Virus record (IMG/VR): IMGVR_UViG_3300036985_000848
Span: 1-21,517 of that record
Source: a virus
Direction: 5' to 3' (one strand)
Length of the DNA stretch: 21,517 bases
In this document: positions 3,659 to 13,509 of the stretch, one piece after another
How positions within the stretch are numbered: position 1 is the first letter of the stretch
Layout of the letters: every line of letters begins with the position of its first letter
Made by a program: the position numbers and the translations under genes
The notes under the pieces: generated by a model
The model's database searches: none
What the model saw: only the letters and a program-made list of their open reading frames with translations
Told to the model about the DNA's origin: nothing

Positions 3659-4693
3659 ATGTCGAATAATAGAATAAGATTGAAGCCAGATGAACTAGAG
3701 ATAATTAAACAATATAGAGGAATAAAAAACGCAACAGATTCAGCAGATGTAAACGATGAAGACGTTAAGCACGGTTGGTTAAAGACTGACAAAGCTAGTT
3801 TATTCTTTAAAAATCCAAACTTTAAAACAGAACAAGAACAAGGATTTGCTATAATAAAAGAAGAAACAATACAAGCAACAAAGAAGCATTCACCAAAGTA
3901 TAAGCAGATAGAACGTGTTGAAGATAAAGAAGCTAACTTATTAGTGATTGATATTGCAGATTTACACATCGGTAAACTATCATCAGCATTTGAAACTGGA
4001 GAAACTTATAACTGTCAAATCGCAGTACAAAGAGCAAAGGAAGGTTTAATAGGAATCATTCAAAAGAGTAAAGGTTATTCAATAGATAAAATACTATTTG
4101 TTGCAGGAAACGATATTCTTCACACAGATAATACAAAGAGTTCGACTACTGCAGGAACGCCACAAGATACGGATGGAATGTGGTATGATAATTTTCTAAC
4201 TGCAAAACAACTATACATAGATCTATTAGAGATGTTAATACCTATTGCAGAAGTTGAAGTAGTTTATAATCCATCAAATCACGATTACACACACGGTTTC
4301 TTTTTGTTGCAATTAATTGAAGCACATTTTCACAAGAGCAATAACATTGTTTTTAACGTTGACTTGAAACATCGCAAAGCATTCCAGTACTATGACAACT
4401 TCATAGGCACTACGCATGGAGATGGTGCAAAACTAGAAGCATTACCATTATTATATGCAACAGAACATTCAATACTTTGGGCGAATACTAAACACAGATA
4501 CGTTTATACGCATCATGTTCACCATAAATCAGGAAAAGACTTTCCGGGTATCACAATAGAAAGCCTACGTTCACCTTCAGGTACTGATTCTTGGCATCAC
4601 AGAAACGGTTTTTGTGGAGGAGTAAAAGCAGTAGAAGGTTATATTCATTCAAAATATAATGGGCAAGTCGCTAGGTTAACACATTTATTTTAA
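3659..4693 (+). CDS. calcineurin-like metallophosphoesterase
   Basis: The 344-residue protein carries the two-metal phosphoesterase motifs in order: D101-x-H103 (IADLHIG), G150-N-D152, N207-H208-D209 (in the place of the usual GNHD), H253-G-D255 and a histidine cluster H285-H286-V-H288-H289 corresponding to the GHxH motif. About 90 residues precede the first motif and begin with a short helix-like LKPDELEIIKQYRG. The family hydrolyses phosphomono- or diesters, including DNA ends and cyclic nucleotides; the substrate here is unknown. It stands between the lysis terminator and the control region, as a single-gene transcription unit with no clear TAnnTTTG box in its 64-base upstream gap. SbcD-like nuclease activity is conceivable, but no SbcC partner is seen. 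Confidence 0.8.
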   Translation: MSNNRIRLKPDELEIIKQYRGIKNATDSADVNDEDVKHGWLKTDKASLFFKNPNFKTEQEQGFAIIKEETIQATKKHSPKYKQIERVEDKEANLLVIDIADLHIGKLSSAFETGETYNCQIAVQRAKEGLIGIIQKSKGYSIDKILFVAGNDILHTDNTKSSTTAGTPQDTDGMWYDNFLTAKQLYIDLLEMLIPIAEVEVVYNPSNHDYTHGFFLLQLIEAHFHKSNNIVFNVDLKHRKAFQYYDNFIGTTHGDGAKLEALPLLYATEHSILWANTKHRYVYTHHVHHKSGKDFPGITIESLRSPSGTDSWHHRNGFCGGVKAVEGYIHSKYNGQVARLTHLF

Positions 4694-4701: not shown

Positions 4702-4741
4702 CAGAGTTAAAATTTTTGTTTTGTTTAGGTTTGGATTGATT

Positions 4742-4766
4742 GGAGGTGTAATAGCCTCCTTTTTTT
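4742..4766 (+). terminator. intrinsic terminator, first of two identical copies
   Basis: GGAGG pairs with CCTCC around TGTAATAG (the inner T and G can add a wobble pair), followed by seven T. The hairpin and T-run are identical in sequence to the terminator at 8718-8741. It ends transcription from the phosphoesterase gene before the early control region. Confidence 0.85.
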
Positions 4767-4792: not shown

Positions 4793-4881
4793 TTTTGTAA
4801 GGTTATAAGCTGATATTATGTAAAGTTTTGTAAGGTTATAACCTTAAATTAAGTATTTTTCACCTTAATTAAGTGTTTTTC
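4793..4881 (+). repeat. clustered direct repeats and palindromes upstream of the early promoter
   Basis: A 16-base direct repeat TTTTGTAAGGTTATAA occurs at 4793-4808 and 4826-4841, exactly 33 bases apart, with a weaker related copy at about 4816-4827. The second copy is part of a perfect 16-base palindrome TAAGGTTATAACCTTA (4831-4846). It is followed by a 20-base imperfect tandem pair at 4842-4861 and 4862-4881 (both CCTTAA-type followed by AAGT and a T-run), the second containing the palindrome CTTAATTAAG (4864-4873). No gene is present between 4694 and 5017. The arrangement suggests operator sites or origin iterons; which one is not decided by the sequence. Confidence 0.7.
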
Positions 4882-4957: not shown

Positions 4958-4987
4958 TTGTTTATATAAACATTGTACATATATTTG
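4958..4987 (+). promoter_or_regulatory. strong early promoter, Bacteroidetes type
   Basis: TTG at 4958-4960 (-33) and TATATTTG at 4980-4987 (-7) are separated by 19 bases, matching the Bacteroidetes primary sigma consensus. Transcription would start at about 4992-4995, giving a short A-rich leader to the ATG at 5018 and driving the long early operon to the terminator at 8718. This is the only box in the window with both elements at ideal spacing. Confidence 0.75.
4959..4972. promoter_or_regulatory. 14-base perfect palindrome in the promoter spacer, operator candidate
   Basis: TGTTTATATAAACA is perfectly self-complementary and lies between the -33 and -7 elements of the early promoter, overlapping the last two bases of the -33 TTG. 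A protein bound here would compete with RNA polymerase. The half-site context ATAAACATTG recurs at 4899-4908 and 4966-4975. The binding protein is not identified; the ribbon-helix-helix protein at 7966 is a possible candidate. Confidence 0.5.
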
Positions 4988-5017
4988 CATATATCAATTA
5001 ACTAAAAACAAAACAAA

Positions 5018-5296
5018 ATGAAAATTAACGTAACAAAAACAGTAACAACAGAAAGCATTGTAGAATTAAATTTCCCTTGCTATGTTAAATCTAAATCAGG
5101 TTATCACCTGTACAAGTTCAAATCTGAAAATGAGATTATTCAAATCTTTGAAGGTGCATCAGGTTTATCTAATTACTATCATTCATCTATTTTAAATGTT
5201 GCAATGGCTACTGCTCTTCAAGAAGGTTGGGAGTTTACTACAGAAGAAGAATTCAATACAATGTTATCAATCATTTTAAAATCATTTGCGTTATGA
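5018..5296 (+). CDS. hypothetical protein, first gene of the early operon
   Basis: A 92-residue protein beginning MKINVTKTVTTESIVELNFP, alternating polar and hydrophobic residues typical of beta strands, followed by a Tyr/Lys-rich segment and a C-terminal helix-like region (EEFNTMLSIILKS). I recognise no domain. It is the first gene after the early promoter, with the A-rich leader AAAACAAA directly before ATG, so it is probably made early and abundantly. First genes of phage early operons often act on the host, but nothing in the sequence shows a target. Its stop overlaps the next ATG (ATGA). Confidence 0.75.
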   Translation: MKINVTKTVTTESIVELNFPCYVKSKSGYHLYKFKSENEIIQIFEGASGLSNYYHSSILNVAMATALQEGWEFTTEEEFNTMLSIILKSFAL

Positions 5297-6708: not shown

Positions 6709-6723
6709 TAAGTTAATAAGTAT

Positions 6724-6731
6724 TACATTTG
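6724..6731 (+). promoter_or_regulatory. candidate -7 element before the ERF gene
   Basis: TACATTTG matches TAnnTTTG and lies 24 bases before the ERF ATG at 6756, in one of the few gaps of the early operon (47 bases). A clear -33 TTG is absent, so it may be a weak internal promoter boosting the recombination module. Confidence 0.45.
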
Positions 6732-6755
6732 TAAACAATCTAAAAATAAAACAAA

Positions 6756-7289
6756 ATGAAAAACGAAACATTTGAAGACGCAATTCCAAGACCAAACGGA
6801 ATTTATTTTAAGCTACACTTGGCTAAACAAGAAATCGGTAAGATTAATAAATCTGCTGACAATCCATTTTTTAAATCTAAATATGCTGATTTAAACACTA
6901 TTCTAGATGTAGTTGAACCGATACTACATAAATACAATTTACTTCTATTACAACCTATTATGAATGGATGTGTGCATAGTGTAATAGTTGACATTGAAAC
7001 TGGAGAAGATATTAATGCTGAAATTAAATTACCTGAGTTAAACGACCCACAGAAGTTAGGAGGTTGTATTTCGTATTTTAGACGTTACACACTTCAATCT
7101 TTATTATCTTTATCTATGCAAGATGATGATGCCAACGATGTTACTAAACACGTTAACAAGAAACCTACAATGCCACAAGAAAGATTTGAAAAAGCATTAA
7201 CTGCAATATCTGAAGGCAAAGCTAAAGTTTCAGACTTGAATCAATTTGAATTAACTGAGTTACAAAAAGCAGCAATAAAATTATTATGA
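6756..7289 (+). CDS. erf: ERF family single-strand annealing recombinase
   Basis: A 177-residue ERF superfamily protein, which pairs complementary single strands during phage recombination. Diagnostic segments are N36-P-F-F-K-S-K-Y-A-D45-L-N (about 36-52, followed by a helix and HKYNLLLLQ), the D97-P-Q-K-L-G-G segment, S106-Y-F-R-R-Y-T (106-112), and the acidic D123-D-D-A-N127. The length suits a short ERF with core domain and a brief helical tail. The downstream gene, overlapping by ATGA, is a YqaJ-type exonuclease, giving the classic annealase-exonuclease pair equivalent to lambda Bet-Exo. The ATG is preceded by the same AAAACAAA leader as the first early gene. Confidence 0.9.
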   Translation: MKNETFEDAIPRPNGIYFKLHLAKQEIGKINKSADNPFFKSKYADLNTILDVVEPILHKYNLLLLQPIMNGCVHSVIVDIETGEDINAEIKLPELNDPQKLGGCISYFRRYTLQSLLSLSMQDDDANDVTKHVNKKPTMPQERFEKALTAISEGKAKVSDLNQFELTELQKAAIKLL

Positions 7290-8411: not shown

Positions 8412-8711
8412 ATGTCTAGCTTAATTAATTTCAGTATGAAGAACGCACAAGGTGGTTACGATAAGTATACTATGAGTGTTAATGACAAACAAGATGACTA
8501 TGGCAATAATGCTAGTATCTTTGTTGCACAGTCAAAAGAAGACCGAGAAGCAAAAGTTAAAAAGAACTTTGTAGGTAACGGTAAAGTAGCTTGGACAGAT
8601 GGCAACATTGTAAAAGCTGAATTTGTCGAAAGAACGGAAGCAAAGCCAACAGGAATGTCAATGCAGTCTACAAGTAGTAAACTAGCAGAAACAGACGATT
8701 TACCTTTTTAA
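8412..8711 (+). CDS. SSB-like single-stranded DNA-binding protein candidate
   Basis: The 99-residue protein has a beta-rich first part (INFSMKNAQGGYDKYTMSV, ASIFVAQSKEDREA, FVGNGKVAWTDGNIVKAEFVE), then a flexible Ser/Thr/Met-rich linker (about 78-92), and ends E93-T-D-D-L-P-F99. The acidic tip D-D-L-P-F matches the C-terminal peptide of bacterial SSB (D-D-I-P-F), which docks helicases and nucleases. It is shorter than a typical OB-fold SSB (about 110 residues plus tail), and I cannot see classical SSB core motifs, so the fold is inferred. Position beside ERF and YqaJ exonuclease genes, and directly before a terminator, supports a recombination/replication role. The leader is the (AAAT)4 repeat. 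Confidence 0.6.
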   Translation: MSSLINFSMKNAQGGYDKYTMSVNDKQDDYGNNASIFVAQSKEDREAKVKKNFVGNGKVAWTDGNIVKAEFVERTEAKPTGMSMQSTSSKLAETDDLPF

Positions 8712-8717
8712 TTAAAC

Positions 8718-8741
8718 GGAGGTGTAATAGCCTCCTTTTTT
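8718..8741 (+). terminator. intrinsic terminator, second of two identical copies
   Basis: GGAGG (8718-8722) pairs with CCTCC (8731-8735) around TGTAATAG, then six T. It follows the SSB-like gene stop (8709-8711) and repeats the hairpin at 4742. It ends the first early operon. Confidence 0.85.
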
Positions 8742-9388: not shown

Positions 9389-9396
9389 TATATTTG
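9389..9396 (+). promoter_or_regulatory. candidate promoter -7 element for the structured leader RNA
   Basis: TATATTTG is a perfect TAnnTTTG match in a 122-base gap. Transcription would begin at about 9401-9404, right at the first hairpin of the structured RNA. A TTG at the ideal -33 distance is not seen, so the promoter may be weak or activator-dependent. Confidence 0.5.
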
Positions 9397-9401
9397 CATA
9401 C

Positions 9402-9484
9402 GAAGCGTAGGAACTTCAAGAAATTTTTACAGAAAAGTCAGTCGACAAATGGTTATCCTACGCACCATTTTAGATTGGCTTTTC
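9402..9484 (+). ncRNA. structured RNA leader with kissing-loop or pseudoknot, unassigned
   Basis: Three helices can be drawn directly. GAAG (9402-9405) pairs with CTTC (9414-9417) around an eight-base loop. A 12-pair helix joins 9432-9443 and 9473-9484 with two G-U pairs. Within it, AAATGGT (9447-9453) pairs with ACCATTT (9464-9470), leaving a ten-base loop at 9454-9463. That loop contains TCCTACGC (9456-9463), perfectly complementary to GCGTAGGA (9405-9412), which is the loop of the first hairpin. The loops can therefore kiss with seven or eight pairs, including several G-C pairs in AT-rich DNA. The element starts where transcription from the box at 9389 should begin and ends 20 bases before the replication gene at 9505. 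It could be a riboswitch-like leader, a translational operator, a ribozyme-like or a free small RNA. I cannot match it to a known family. Confidence 0.6.
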
Positions 9485-9504
9485 GCATTTTATAATATTT
9501 AAAG

Positions 9505-10170
9505 ATGGAAAAACCAACTAAAAGAAAAGCATTTAATTTTTTGAGGAGTTATTTTGATGTAATAAATGAATTGCAAAATGATACTGATAAATTAGAATTT
9601 GTTATGGCAGTAATTAATAAACAATTTTTAGATGAAGACCCTAAAGAATTAAATTTTGTAGTTAATCTATGTTATCAAAGTCAAAAACACGCAGTAGAAT
9701 CTAGCGTAAAGGGATGGAAAAGAGTAAGTAATACTGATTTAATCGGTAACCCCACGACTAACCCTACGACCATCCCTATGACTAACCCCACGACTAACCC
9801 CCAAGAAGTAGAAGAGAAAGTAAAAGTAGAAGAGAAAGAGAAAGTACAAAACGTAAAAGAAAAACTTTCTAAAAAAGATGTAGATAAATTTCTTTTGTGG
9901 TTTAATAATACAAAGTTGAAATATAAAAATTCAGTAGGTAAATTTAAGATTTTAAATGCTACCGACATAAACAACTTACTATTACTTAAAAAATTAAATT
10001 ATACTGCTGAAGATTTTGATATTGCTTTTAAAGAAATGTGTAATTCTGCTTGGGTAAATGAAAACAATATGTGTACTCCTGCTCACTTCTTAAGAAACGA
10101 TAACTTTACAAGATATTTAAACGCATCAGAAACAGAATCAGAGGTTAAATTTAAAGCAGCTTGGCAATAA
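9505..10170 (+). CDS. replisome organiser-like phage replication protein (DUF6291-like N-terminus)
   Basis: The 221-residue protein starts MEKPTKRKAFNFLRSYFDVINEL and continues with NDTDKLEFVMAVINKQFLDEDP, resembling the N-terminal domain of Bacteroidetes phage replication proteins related to DUF6291. Residues about 81-99 form a tetrapeptide repeat (NPTTNPTTIPMTNPTTNP), followed by a highly charged linker (EEKVKVEEKEKV). The C-terminal domain (about 120-221) ends with MCTPAHFLRNDNFTRYLNA, the pattern of DnaD/replisome-organiser-like C-termini (T-P-x-H-x-L-x-x-x-x-F-x-R-Y-L). It is followed, through a TAATG overlap, by the helicase gene, as organiser and helicase-loader genes usually are. It probably recognises the phage origin and brings in the helicase. 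Its leader holds the structured RNA. Confidence 0.65.
   Translation: MEKPTKRKAFNFLRSYFDVINELQNDTDKLEFVMAVINKQFLDEDPKELNFVVNLCYQSQKHAVESSVKGWKRVSNTDLIGNPTTNPTTIPMTNPTTNPQEVEEKVKVEEKEKVQNVKEKLSKKDVDKFLLWFNNTKLKYKNSVGKFKILNATDINNLLLLKKLNYTAEDFDIAFKEMCNSAWVNENNMCTPAHFLRNDNFTRYLNASETESEVKFKAAWQ
9748..9801 (+). repeat. 12-base tandem repeat inside the replication protein gene
   Basis: Four and a half 12-base units of the type AACCCCACGACT, with units 1 and 4 identical, run through the linker of the organiser-like gene and encode NPTT repeats (one unit reads IPMT). The block is C-rich in otherwise AT-rich DNA. Iterons within the initiator gene form the origin in lambda (within O) and in lactococcal phages, so this is an origin candidate, though it may simply be a flexible protein linker. 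Confidence 0.75.
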
Positions 10171-11159
10171 TGGAAGGATTTAAAATAACAGAGCCTAGCG
10201 ATGTTCTTAAACAACTAAAGGAATATAGAGATAACTATCACGATAAAGGAGTTTATTTAGGATTCGACAAGATAGATAAACACTATTCGATGCAGTTGGG
10301 TAATTGTACAGATTGGACTGGGTTTCCAATGAGTGGTAAAACTCAAGTGTTAATGGAGTTACTAATGAATACTTCTTTATTCTACGGATGGAAGCATTTA
10401 ATATACTTTCCTGACGTTGGAAATAATGTTGAAATAATTGCAGACTTTATTCATAAAAAAACAAGTAAGACGTTTGACCCTAAAAAAGTAAACTCAATTA
10501 CTGATTCTGAAATTGAAGATAATATTAAATGGGTAACGGATCATTTTAAAGTTTTAACTAAAACAGATGTGAAAGCAAAATTAACTCCGATGCAGTTTTG
10601 GGATATAGCAGCAACGATTAAACAAACTGAAGAACTTCACACAGCAAGTATTGATAGTTGGAAGGATATGAGTCACGACTATGAAAAATATGGAGGATAT
10701 GCAACTTATTTAGAAGTAGTTTTGCCTTATAGAAATCATATTGCAGAACAACATAACTTACATTTGCACACAATTATTCATCCTAAACTAACTGAAAAGA
10801 TAAACGGAGTTAGAAATCCTCCAAGTCCTTACGATTTAAAAGGTGGTAGTGAATGGTTTAATAGTGGTAAGTGTATGATTACAGTACATAGAGCAGACAT
10901 AGAACATAATCAAGCTGAAATACATTTTAACAAGATTAAACCACGTTCAGTAGGTAGTGTTGGAAAGATTGACATTCATTTTGATTTAAATACTTTGACG
11001 TATTACGATATTGATGTTGCTGCTCCGAATACACATAACAAAATTTATGCTGCTAAACGAGGTGAGGTTAAAAAATATAATCCATTACCAGAAGAAGTAC
11101 AGAATTTTTATAAGCCATTAGAACAAAATAATAACTTTGACGATGGAATGCCATTTTAA
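10170..11159 (+). CDS. DnaB/Twinkle-like RecA-fold helicase, no primase domain
   Basis: I start at ATG 10170, which overlaps the preceding TAA (TAATG), rather than at an upstream TTG at 10161. The 329-residue protein has a Walker A G51-F-P-M-S-G56-K57-T58-Q, preceded by a typical strand-turn. Near residues 200-240 the order I-I-H-P-K-L, then N-P-P-S-P-Y-D-L-K-G-G-S-E-W, then M-I-T-V-H-R follows the arrangement of replicative DnaB/gp4/Twinkle helicases (H-P-K, G-S-x-x-x-x-x-x-D, arginine finger region). There is no N-terminal primase zinc domain, so it would use host primase. It ends N-N-F-D-D-G-M-P-F, similar to the acidic tip of SSB, which is unusual for a helicase. It acts with the organiser-like protein at the phage origin. 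Confidence 0.65.
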   Translation: MEGFKITEPSDVLKQLKEYRDNYHDKGVYLGFDKIDKHYSMQLGNCTDWTGFPMSGKTQVLMELLMNTSLFYGWKHLIYFPDVGNNVEIIADFIHKKTSKTFDPKKVNSITDSEIEDNIKWVTDHFKVLTKTDVKAKLTPMQFWDIAATIKQTEELHTASIDSWKDMSHDYEKYGGYATYLEVVLPYRNHIAEQHNLHLHTIIHPKLTEKINGVRNPPSPYDLKGGSEWFNSGKCMITVHRADIEHNQAEIHFNKIKPRSVGSVGKIDIHFDLNTLTYYDIDVAAPNTHNKIYAAKRGEVKKYNPLPEEVQNFYKPLEQNNNFDDGMPF

Positions 11160-13128: not shown

Positions 13129-13509
13129 ATGAAAGTAGGAGATAAAGTAAGATACAAAGGTGGTAAAAATGATTTTTGGATTAGCCGTGATGCTTTTGAA
13201 GTAGATGAGATATATAAAATATCTTATGTGGATAAATATCAAGTAATGGTAAATGGAGAAGATGGAAAATATACTTATACTTTAAAAGAATTATCTAAGT
13301 TCTTTGAAGTAATTGATGTTGAAAAAGACCAGCACTATGATAACACGAATGGAAGTCTTTACCTATTCGCTGAACAACACGAACTAAATGCGTATGAATT
13401 TGATATTATTAAACGTATTGTAAGATGTCGCAAGAAAGGACAGTTCAAAGAAGATTTGGAGAAGACAATAAGAGTTATTGAATTATATTTAAAAGAAACG
13501 GAATTATGA
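13129..13509 (+). CDS. DUF3310-like protein with N-terminal SH3-like domain
   Basis: The 126-residue protein has two parts. Residues 1-62 begin MKVGDKVRYKGG, with a strand pattern (DAFEVDEIYKISYVDK, KELSKFFEVID) of a small SH3-like barrel. Residues 67-123 read D67-Q-H-Y70-D-N, F80, F91-D-I-I-K95-R-I-V-R99-C-R-K-K-G104 and D109-L, matching the DUF3310 helical domain found in many phage proteins (H-Y, then N-x-I-K-Y-L-x-R-x-x-x-K-G, then D-L-x-K). DUF3310 proteins are often annotated as nucleotide kinase-like, though the function is not established. The fused barrel suggests a regulated or DNA/RNA-binding form. The gene follows a 32-base gap after the 27-residue microprotein. Confidence 0.6.
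   Translation: MKVGDKVRYKGGKNDFWISRDAFEVDEIYKISYVDKYQVMVNGEDGKYTYTLKELSKFFEVIDVEKDQHYDNTNGSLYLFAEQHELNAYEFDIIKRIVRCRKKGQFKEDLEKTIRVIELYLKETEL

Follow-up and report, generated by a model that had tools for sequence, protein, structure and literature searches.

The window analyzed here is the whole of the virus record IMGVR_UViG_3300036985_000848, 21,517 nt in length, with the genes of interest all on the + strand. Upstream of an ORF encoding a 221-amino acid protein, we examined a predicted leader that can form three helices (P1, P2 and P3) as well as a loop-loop (pseudoknot) helix. The features of this region are:

9389-9396, + strand: TATATTTG, sigma-A -7 box (TAnnTTTG) of the leader promoter
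9401-9402, + strand: predicted transcription start, inferred from box spacing, such that P1 opens the 5´ end of the RNA
9402-9417, + strand: P1, the 5´-terminal hairpin GAAG-CGTAGGAA-CTTC, with the stem formed by GAAG (9402-9405) and CTTC (9414-9417)
9405-9412, + strand: 5´ strand of the loop-loop helix, GCGTAGGA, which pairs with 9456-9463
9418-9431, + strand: linker from P1 to P2, A-rich and then U-rich, AAGAAATTTTTACA, conserved across clusters
9432-9443/9473-9484 (span 9432-9484), + strand: P2, a 12-pair helix, terminator-like in most relatives
9447-9453/9464-9470, + strand: P3, an apical helix of seven pairs, which closes a 10-nt loop (9454-9463)
9456-9463, + strand: 3´ strand of the loop-loop helix, TCCTACGC, within the loop that caps P2/P3 and exactly complementary to GCGTAGGA
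9480-9491, + strand: TTTT-CGCA-TTTT, a U-tract with an interruption, closing the 3´ side of P2, where no canonical terminator was called
9505-10170, + strand: gene for a replication-organiser-like protein (P0001 family, 221 aa), its role inferred from neighbors, iterons and position
9747-9801, + strand: iteron-like 12-bp repeat TAACCCCACGAC, 4.6 copies, inside the 9505-10170 gene and ~260 nt downstream of P2

An initial annotation, made from the sequence alone, had proposed P1, P2, P3 and the loop-loop pairing, and all were present at these coordinates, with the ATG of the replication gene (9505) 20 nt past the end of P2, as it had also said. Its statement that the two paired strands are the loops of two hairpins needs one small correction: 9405-9412 is complementary to 9456-9463, but the P1 stem ends with G9405 and the P1 loop proper is 9406-9413. 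Since G9405 both closes the P1 stem and opens the loop-loop helix, it can take part in only one of these helices at a time. The 9402-9504 segment folds with an energy of -23.7 kcal/mol, compared to -12.95 ± 2.95 in shuffles (z -3.6, with none of 200 shuffles as good), a value that leaves out the loop-loop helix. The annotation had judged the pairings hard to explain by chance, and both this z-score and the compensatory changes described below bear this out. Chance inverted repeats were likewise excluded by the frequency of the element above shuffles and by compensatory change. When the window was scanned with a promoter-anchored descriptor (a box, P1, at least seven loop-loop pairs and a P2 enclosing the partner strand), this leader was the single strong element.

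Other repeats were also noted in the window. AAAACACGAAC occurs in five exact + strand copies (at 11159, 13702, 14722, 15121 and 17502), several of them at gene junctions, and in a one-mismatch copy at 13374; these six matches compare to 0.86 expected, and no shuffle reached six. Two 36-nt copies (4730-4765 and 8706-8741), 86% alike, have a GGAGG...CCTCC hairpin and then T6, a terminator-like arrangement, after ORFs. A 33-bp tandem repeat (1.9 copies, 4793-4855) lies in the gap between ORFs ending at 4693 and starting at 5018, and two similar leaders (4985-5024 and 6723-6762, 80% alike), which end in CTAAAAA(C/T)AAAACAAAATGAAAA, are found at two ORF starts.

P1 is predicted to open the transcript

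A TAnnTTTG box had been noted just upstream of the hairpins, and TATATTTG was found there. The sigma-A box in F. psychrophilum was measured at -12 to -5 (PMC9723704), which would place +1 of the window transcript at 9401, in agreement with a start near 9402. The relatives also have a box ahead of the element, and a TAnnTT[TA]G box precedes 44 of the 62 clusters from a scan that had not used the promoter. P1 begins ~6 nt past the box (median, 54 clusters); given this spacing and the F. psychrophilum box position, the RNA would begin directly with P1. The transcript was not observed, and both its existence and its start near 9402 are inferred from the sequence.

The pairings are conserved through compensatory change

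Covariation was assessed in 36 distinct sequences aligned with a covariance model on which P2 was imposed. Two-sided changes were detected at all 12 pairs of P2, and the covariation score for P1, P2 and P3 jointly was 0.518 vs 0.153 ± 0.013 in shuffles and no more than 0.122 in controls for which the partner strand was slid. The alignment was fitted to the tested P1/P2/P3 structure and thus favors that structure; the margin is nonetheless large. The loop-loop helix, which was not part of the covariance model behind the alignment, was paired in 100% of the cells in the same 36 sequences, with four of its eight pairs compensated and none broken. RNAalifold, given a MAFFT alignment and no structure, returned the loop-loop helix as the best nested structure and missed P2 because the arms were shifted, while the covariance model with P2 imposed recovered it. 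P1 is nearly invariant within the 36-sequence clade, and the support for this hairpin comes from the wider family, where relatives have the stem swapped for unrelated complementary stems (e.g. ATGTAATG/CATTACAT, TGTAG/CTACA and GGTTC/GAACC).

We also carried out a second scan in which the promoter box and P1 stem were fixed, the loop was set to N and the 3´ side was ignored. The 36 hits included ~20 true members, several of which had other loops (GCATCGGA, GCCTCGGA, GCGTCGGA, GCATAGGA and GCCTGAGA) with an exact complement in the P2 loop in each case. Because the scan was blind to the 3´ side, the matching strands in the P2 loops are an unbiased test of the loop-loop helix. The initial annotation had named compensatory changes in 9405-9412/9456-9463 and 9432-9443/9473-9484 as support for its proposal, and such changes are present in both helices. 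Taken together, these data establish the pairings and show that they are conserved via compensatory change.

Two variants of the fold were seen among the leaders. For L016, the P1 loop and its partner match almost completely over 17 nt (TGCGAAACGTTATGGAA / TTCCATAATGTTTCGCA). An ordinary kissing loop would not be this long, and here the loop-loop helix may compete with P2. The GGTTC-type leaders of one clade (among them L132, L133, L137, L141 and L142), read by eye, have a conserved GAA/GG internal loop that splits P2.

A family of leaders with one architecture and unrelated sequences

The exact pattern GCGTAGGAACTTC-N25-50-TCCTACGC was found in 23 viral contigs and two further overlapping loci; these copies follow a TATATTTG-like box, and many lie ahead of differing genes. 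The exact GAAG-type pattern had no match in 84,980 bacterial and archaeal GTDB genomes, and a pattern search of GTDB genomes likewise gave no confirmed relative of the downstream protein family. In the absence of a cellular copy of either in GTDB, a prophage or host origin was rejected.

When the regions preceding homologues of the downstream gene were read, the architecture recurred although the sequences were unrelated. With the descriptor, 89 loci yielded 66 hits and shuffles yielded none, while the promoter-free scan of 82 loci around the downstream gene gave 62 clusters, 54 of them on the strand of the gene. Over the 1.33 Mb fetched, 104 elements in 54 sequence clusters were detected at 4,010 promoter-like sites (2.6%), compared to five elements in 19,840 regions of the shuffled background (0.025%). 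The loci were mostly fetched for carrying the pattern or the gene, so the value of 2.6% is not a rate for phages generally. The loop-loop strands are 58% G+C vs 29% G+C in the surrounding DNA. The sole sequence shared in the family is the P1-P2 linker, roughly AAARRAAWWTTTWTTWA, for which 6-mers such as GAAATT (12 observed vs 0.8 in shuffles) and TTTATT (12 vs 1.0) were enriched. The element is 5´-terminal and on the same strand as the gene that follows, with the first ATG a median of 38 nt past the loop-loop strand. Copies per genome are few, with two each in contigs L032, L036 and L059.

Comparison to Rfam 15, a check that had been suggested for the leader, gave nothing at the gathering threshold for the window and eight relatives and only sub-threshold, chance-level matches at a permissive threshold; no known family was met, and the element is absent from Rfam 15. 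No tRNA or tmRNA was found. The element was undescribed in the literature searched, though a listing in the supplements of large computational catalogues (e.g. PMC8040213) is not excluded. We conclude that this is a large RNA family in which the fold is kept and the sequence replaced, suggesting a hitherto undescribed element through which RNA controls phage replication.

The element is present in isolated phages

The isolates were not found by blastn of the window leader against named phages because the leader sequence is not conserved; they were located via their helicase and initiator proteins, or by named accession. Flavobacterium phage FCL-2 has one copy, before gp54, and none elsewhere in the genome in the promoter-anchored scan. 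A single copy occupies the same position in FCV-1 and in its relatives F56, VK48 and FCOV-S2; in it, the P1, loop-loop and P2 sequences are unrelated to those of FCL-2 and the architecture is identical. We detected one copy each in Flavobacterium 11b and Polaribacter P12002L, and the element is also present in Polaribacter P12002S, Cellulophaga phi13:2 and phi19:3 (both with a weak P1) and Parabacteroides PD691P6. For elemoA (Flavobacterium), the descriptor made no call, and P1 (GTTATTA/TAATAAC), the loop-loop helix (TGAGAGC/GCTCTCA) and P2 (AATCC/GGATT) were read by eye. In the isolates, the element lies before the replication gene or before a small ORF leading into that gene.

The descriptor found no element in Cellulophaga phi10:1 and phi38:1 (first 50 kb of each), Cellulophaga phi12:1 or Croceibacter P2559S. 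There was also none in the 28-42 kb examined of Flavobacterium 1/32, none just before the initiator homologue of Riemerella PT33, and none before the homologous initiators of Pseudomonas phiAH14a and Acinetobacter WCHABP12, where there is almost no intergenic space. Weak hits in L162 and L164 fell inside coding sequence and were taken as chance.

Genes behind the leader and a candidate origin

The downstream gene in the window had no confident Pfam or PHROG match. That it is replication-organiser-like is inferred from its neighbors (ERF, exonuclease and helicase), its internal iterons and a position equivalent to that of the initiators in the isolates. For FCL-2, FCV-1 and P12002L, the downstream replication gene encodes a lambda O-like or DnaD-like initiator: FCL-2 gp54 matches PHROG 428 (4.7e-32), P12002L gp44 matches PHROG 678, replication initiation O-like (1.1e-37), and FCV-1 gp53 has weaker matches to initiators and a helix-turn-helix domain. 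The 11b gp63 is assigned to DUF6291, and its one primosomal match is weak. A small ORF sits between the leader and the replication gene in FCV-1, 11b and elemoA, and in most viral contigs the element is followed directly by a homologue of the replication organiser or by a small ORF that precedes such a homologue. Some copies precede other genes (HNH, methylase, acetyltransferase-like), and the second L036 copy precedes the gene for a 786-aa protein. Given these copies and the two-copy contigs, the link of the element to replication is strong but not absolute.

Among the small first ORFs, we noted a family of ~60-80-aa proteins with a C-terminal motif like STAIKLSKTLRTEI, encoded directly after the element in L012, L026, L028, L032, L035, L055, L057, L060, L066, L073, L075, L079 and L086. 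A stretch resembling AGTTACTGGTAATCTAAAAACCTTTATTAAAATTATGG recurs between P2 and the small first ORF in L055, L057, L060, L075, L079, L086, L037 and L050.

The repeats inside the window gene are a candidate origin, an inference for which there are no origin-activity data; a purine-rich stretch follows them. Of 65 homologous genes, 54 contain tandem repeats, and the location is similar in most of the homologues, compared to 13 of 119 background pieces with such repeats, with some of the homologues having purine-rich coding repeats, not iterons. FCL-2 gp54 and P12002L gp44 have 22-23-bp repeats at a similar place. The lambda O gene likewise holds its origin inside.

A proposed cis-acting leader for replication initiation and alternative roles

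An uninterrupted U-tract (at least six T in 8 nt) follows P2 in 39 of the 54 clusters, compared to two of 53 control windows with such a tract. The tract is interrupted in the window (TTTTCGCATTTT), FCV-1 and 13 other clusters, and a terminator scan called nothing at the window P2; termination is therefore not universal. In the window, P2 could either terminate weakly or serve another purpose.

The reading we prefer, to which we assign an even chance, is that the element is a cis-acting 5´ leader through which the replication-initiation operon is gated, at the level of transcription or translation; attenuation is the likeliest mode, and the mechanism is inferred. In this Bacteroidota phage, the RNA would form the 5´ untranslated part of the transcript for replication initiation, starting at ~9401-9402. 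Its first bases would fold as P1, and, in a folding order that is inferred, the P2/P3 apical loop would emerge as the polymerase progresses and pair with the P1 loop. The result would be an intramolecular kissing complex whose two hairpins are connected by the conserved A/U-rich linker. This complex may set the transcript level in cis, and with it the amount of initiator protein and the transcription through the downstream origin. Attenuation is suggested by an intrinsic-terminator-like P2 between promoter and gene, and we suppose that the kissing interaction might alter either P2 efficiency or ribosome loading downstream. The trigger is probably general; candidates are RNA polymerase, an RNA-binding protein from host or phage, and simply the rate of folding. 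As the initiators behind the leader are from unrelated families, binding of an initiator to its own leader is probably not the trigger.

Some observations fit this reading poorly. A classical attenuator would have a conserved alternative fold that excludes P2, whereas none was identified, albeit without a systematic search, and in cases with 7-10 pairs the loop-loop helix and P2 look able to coexist. Additionally, some copies precede non-initiator genes, P1 in the window has just four pairs and no RNA was measured. With respect to other forms of leader control, nine antisense promoter boxes were seen vs 11.9 expected by base rate, and the lack of an excess of opposing boxes indicates that a countertranscript is not required, leading us to reject an antisense-controlled leader. 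A leader peptide was also rejected: one clade has an AUG within P2, but reading by eye showed that stops come early after it, in differing frames.

The central proposal of the initial annotation, a structured leader with loop-loop pairing before the replication gene, is thus supported by the compensatory changes seen for P2, for P3 and for the loop-loop pairing, by the promoter position and by recurrence before initiators in unrelated phages. It had offered three functions. A classical riboswitch is unlikely given that the family shares only the A/U-rich linker, with no core like a ligand pocket. An operator for replication, translational or transcriptional, fits best of the three. The third, a free small RNA, cannot be excluded. 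Here P2 would terminate transcription and release a ~85-110-nt RNA acting in trans on host or phage RNA or protein, with the gene expressed via read-through, as could be expected from the uninterrupted U-tract in 39 of 54 clusters, a compact structure with a hairpin at each end and a conserved A/U-rich linker that could be protein-bound. However, loops and stems are unrelated between the close relatives FCL-2 and FCV-1, so that a conserved antisense seed is lacking, the leaders that were read showed no noticeable promoter box of the gene's own after P2, and the U-tract of the window is interrupted. A co-directional gene also follows, mostly within tens of bases in the set examined, and we regard a small RNA as unlikely.

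Stable 5´ stem-loops and exonuclease-resistant pseudoknots are known to protect RNAs from 5´-end-dependent decay, and the 5´ hairpin and kissing complex could similarly shield the replication mRNA. P1 at the predicted +1 is consistent with this role, as is a conserved fold with little sequence conservation, which is expected if shape alone matters. A stability element would leave unexplained the frequent terminator-like U-tract, and also why the element, present in few copies per genome, is linked to the replication module and not to other long transcripts; we consider it improbable.

Transcription through lambda ori activates replication, and the RNA could in the same way start transcription that activates or primes replication at the iterons of the initiator gene, with the fold controlling R-loop formation or primer processing. 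The 12-bp iteron-like repeats ~220-300 nt into many of the 54 repeat-bearing homologous genes (of 65), the 22-23-bp repeats in FCL-2 gp54 and P12002L gp44, the promoter directly upstream and the same position before unrelated initiators are all compatible with an origin transcript. Several copies are nevertheless a gene or more from the initiator and the window has no switch in GC skew where the element lies, making this role quite doubtful. A put-like antitermination RNA, which would bind RNA polymerase and make it resistant to later operon terminators, has very little to recommend it: the setting is that of HK022 putL (~70-90 nt, two stem-loops, at a phage promoter), but putL and putR share sequence and need specific residues while the P1, P2 and loops of this family share none, and the kissing helix is without a counterpart in put, as far as the part of the source available to us goes (PMC9378689).

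Implications

Little was found on RNA control in Bacteroidota phages, although gut, freshwater and marine habitats all harbor these in abundance. The element described here is common to phages of Flavobacterium, Polaribacter, Cellulophaga and Parabacteroides and sits at the decision point for replication. With the fold kept while the sequence is replaced, such elements are missed by sequence-based RNA searches and Rfam; their presence in the isolated phages FCL-2, FCV-1 and 11b makes the function directly testable. We tentatively raise the possibility, without thinking it the probable outcome, that they constitute a new class of Bacteroidota phage RNA for which only the fold, a hairpin at the 5´ end that kisses a terminator-like one, is selected and the sequence is free, serving as a common replication-start switch before non-homologous initiators. 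The rapid sequence turnover may reflect self/non-self discrimination between co-infecting phages.

Comparison with known systems

Among the closest known systems is the repZ/repA leader pseudoknot, reportedly described by Asano and Mizobuchi in 1998 for IncI-alpha, IncB and IncL/M plasmids. Both it and the phage element have a loop-loop pseudoknot of two stem-loops upstream of the start codon of a replication initiator. The plasmid system, however, has an antisense RNA that competes with the pseudoknot, a coupled short leader ORF and a RepZ/RepA initiator, whereas the phage element, found in Bacteroidota phages, has no excess of antisense promoters, no leader ORF that we noticed, a 5´-terminal hairpin and a terminator-like second hairpin. 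That the phage pseudoknot is needed for initiator translation, as for the repZ type, could at most be inferred by analogy, there being no reporter data. The T4 gene 32 translational operator is a 5´ pseudoknot, and gp32 binds its own leader; the phage family resembles this operator in having a 5´ leader pseudoknot before a phage replication gene but differs in that the genes behind the leader are unrelated. In pT181-type attenuators of a replication gene, which use a countertranscript and a pre-emptor, there is similarly a terminator-like hairpin in the leader of an initiator gene, though we saw no sign of a countertranscript promoter for the phage element. Finally, HK022 putL and putR, as described in the part of the source available to us (PMC9378689), are also phage RNAs with two stem-loops, with putL directly at an early promoter, and act on RNA polymerase. 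The put copies share sequence, in contrast to the 54 clusters of the family described here, which have unrelated stems and loops and share the A/U-rich linker alone.
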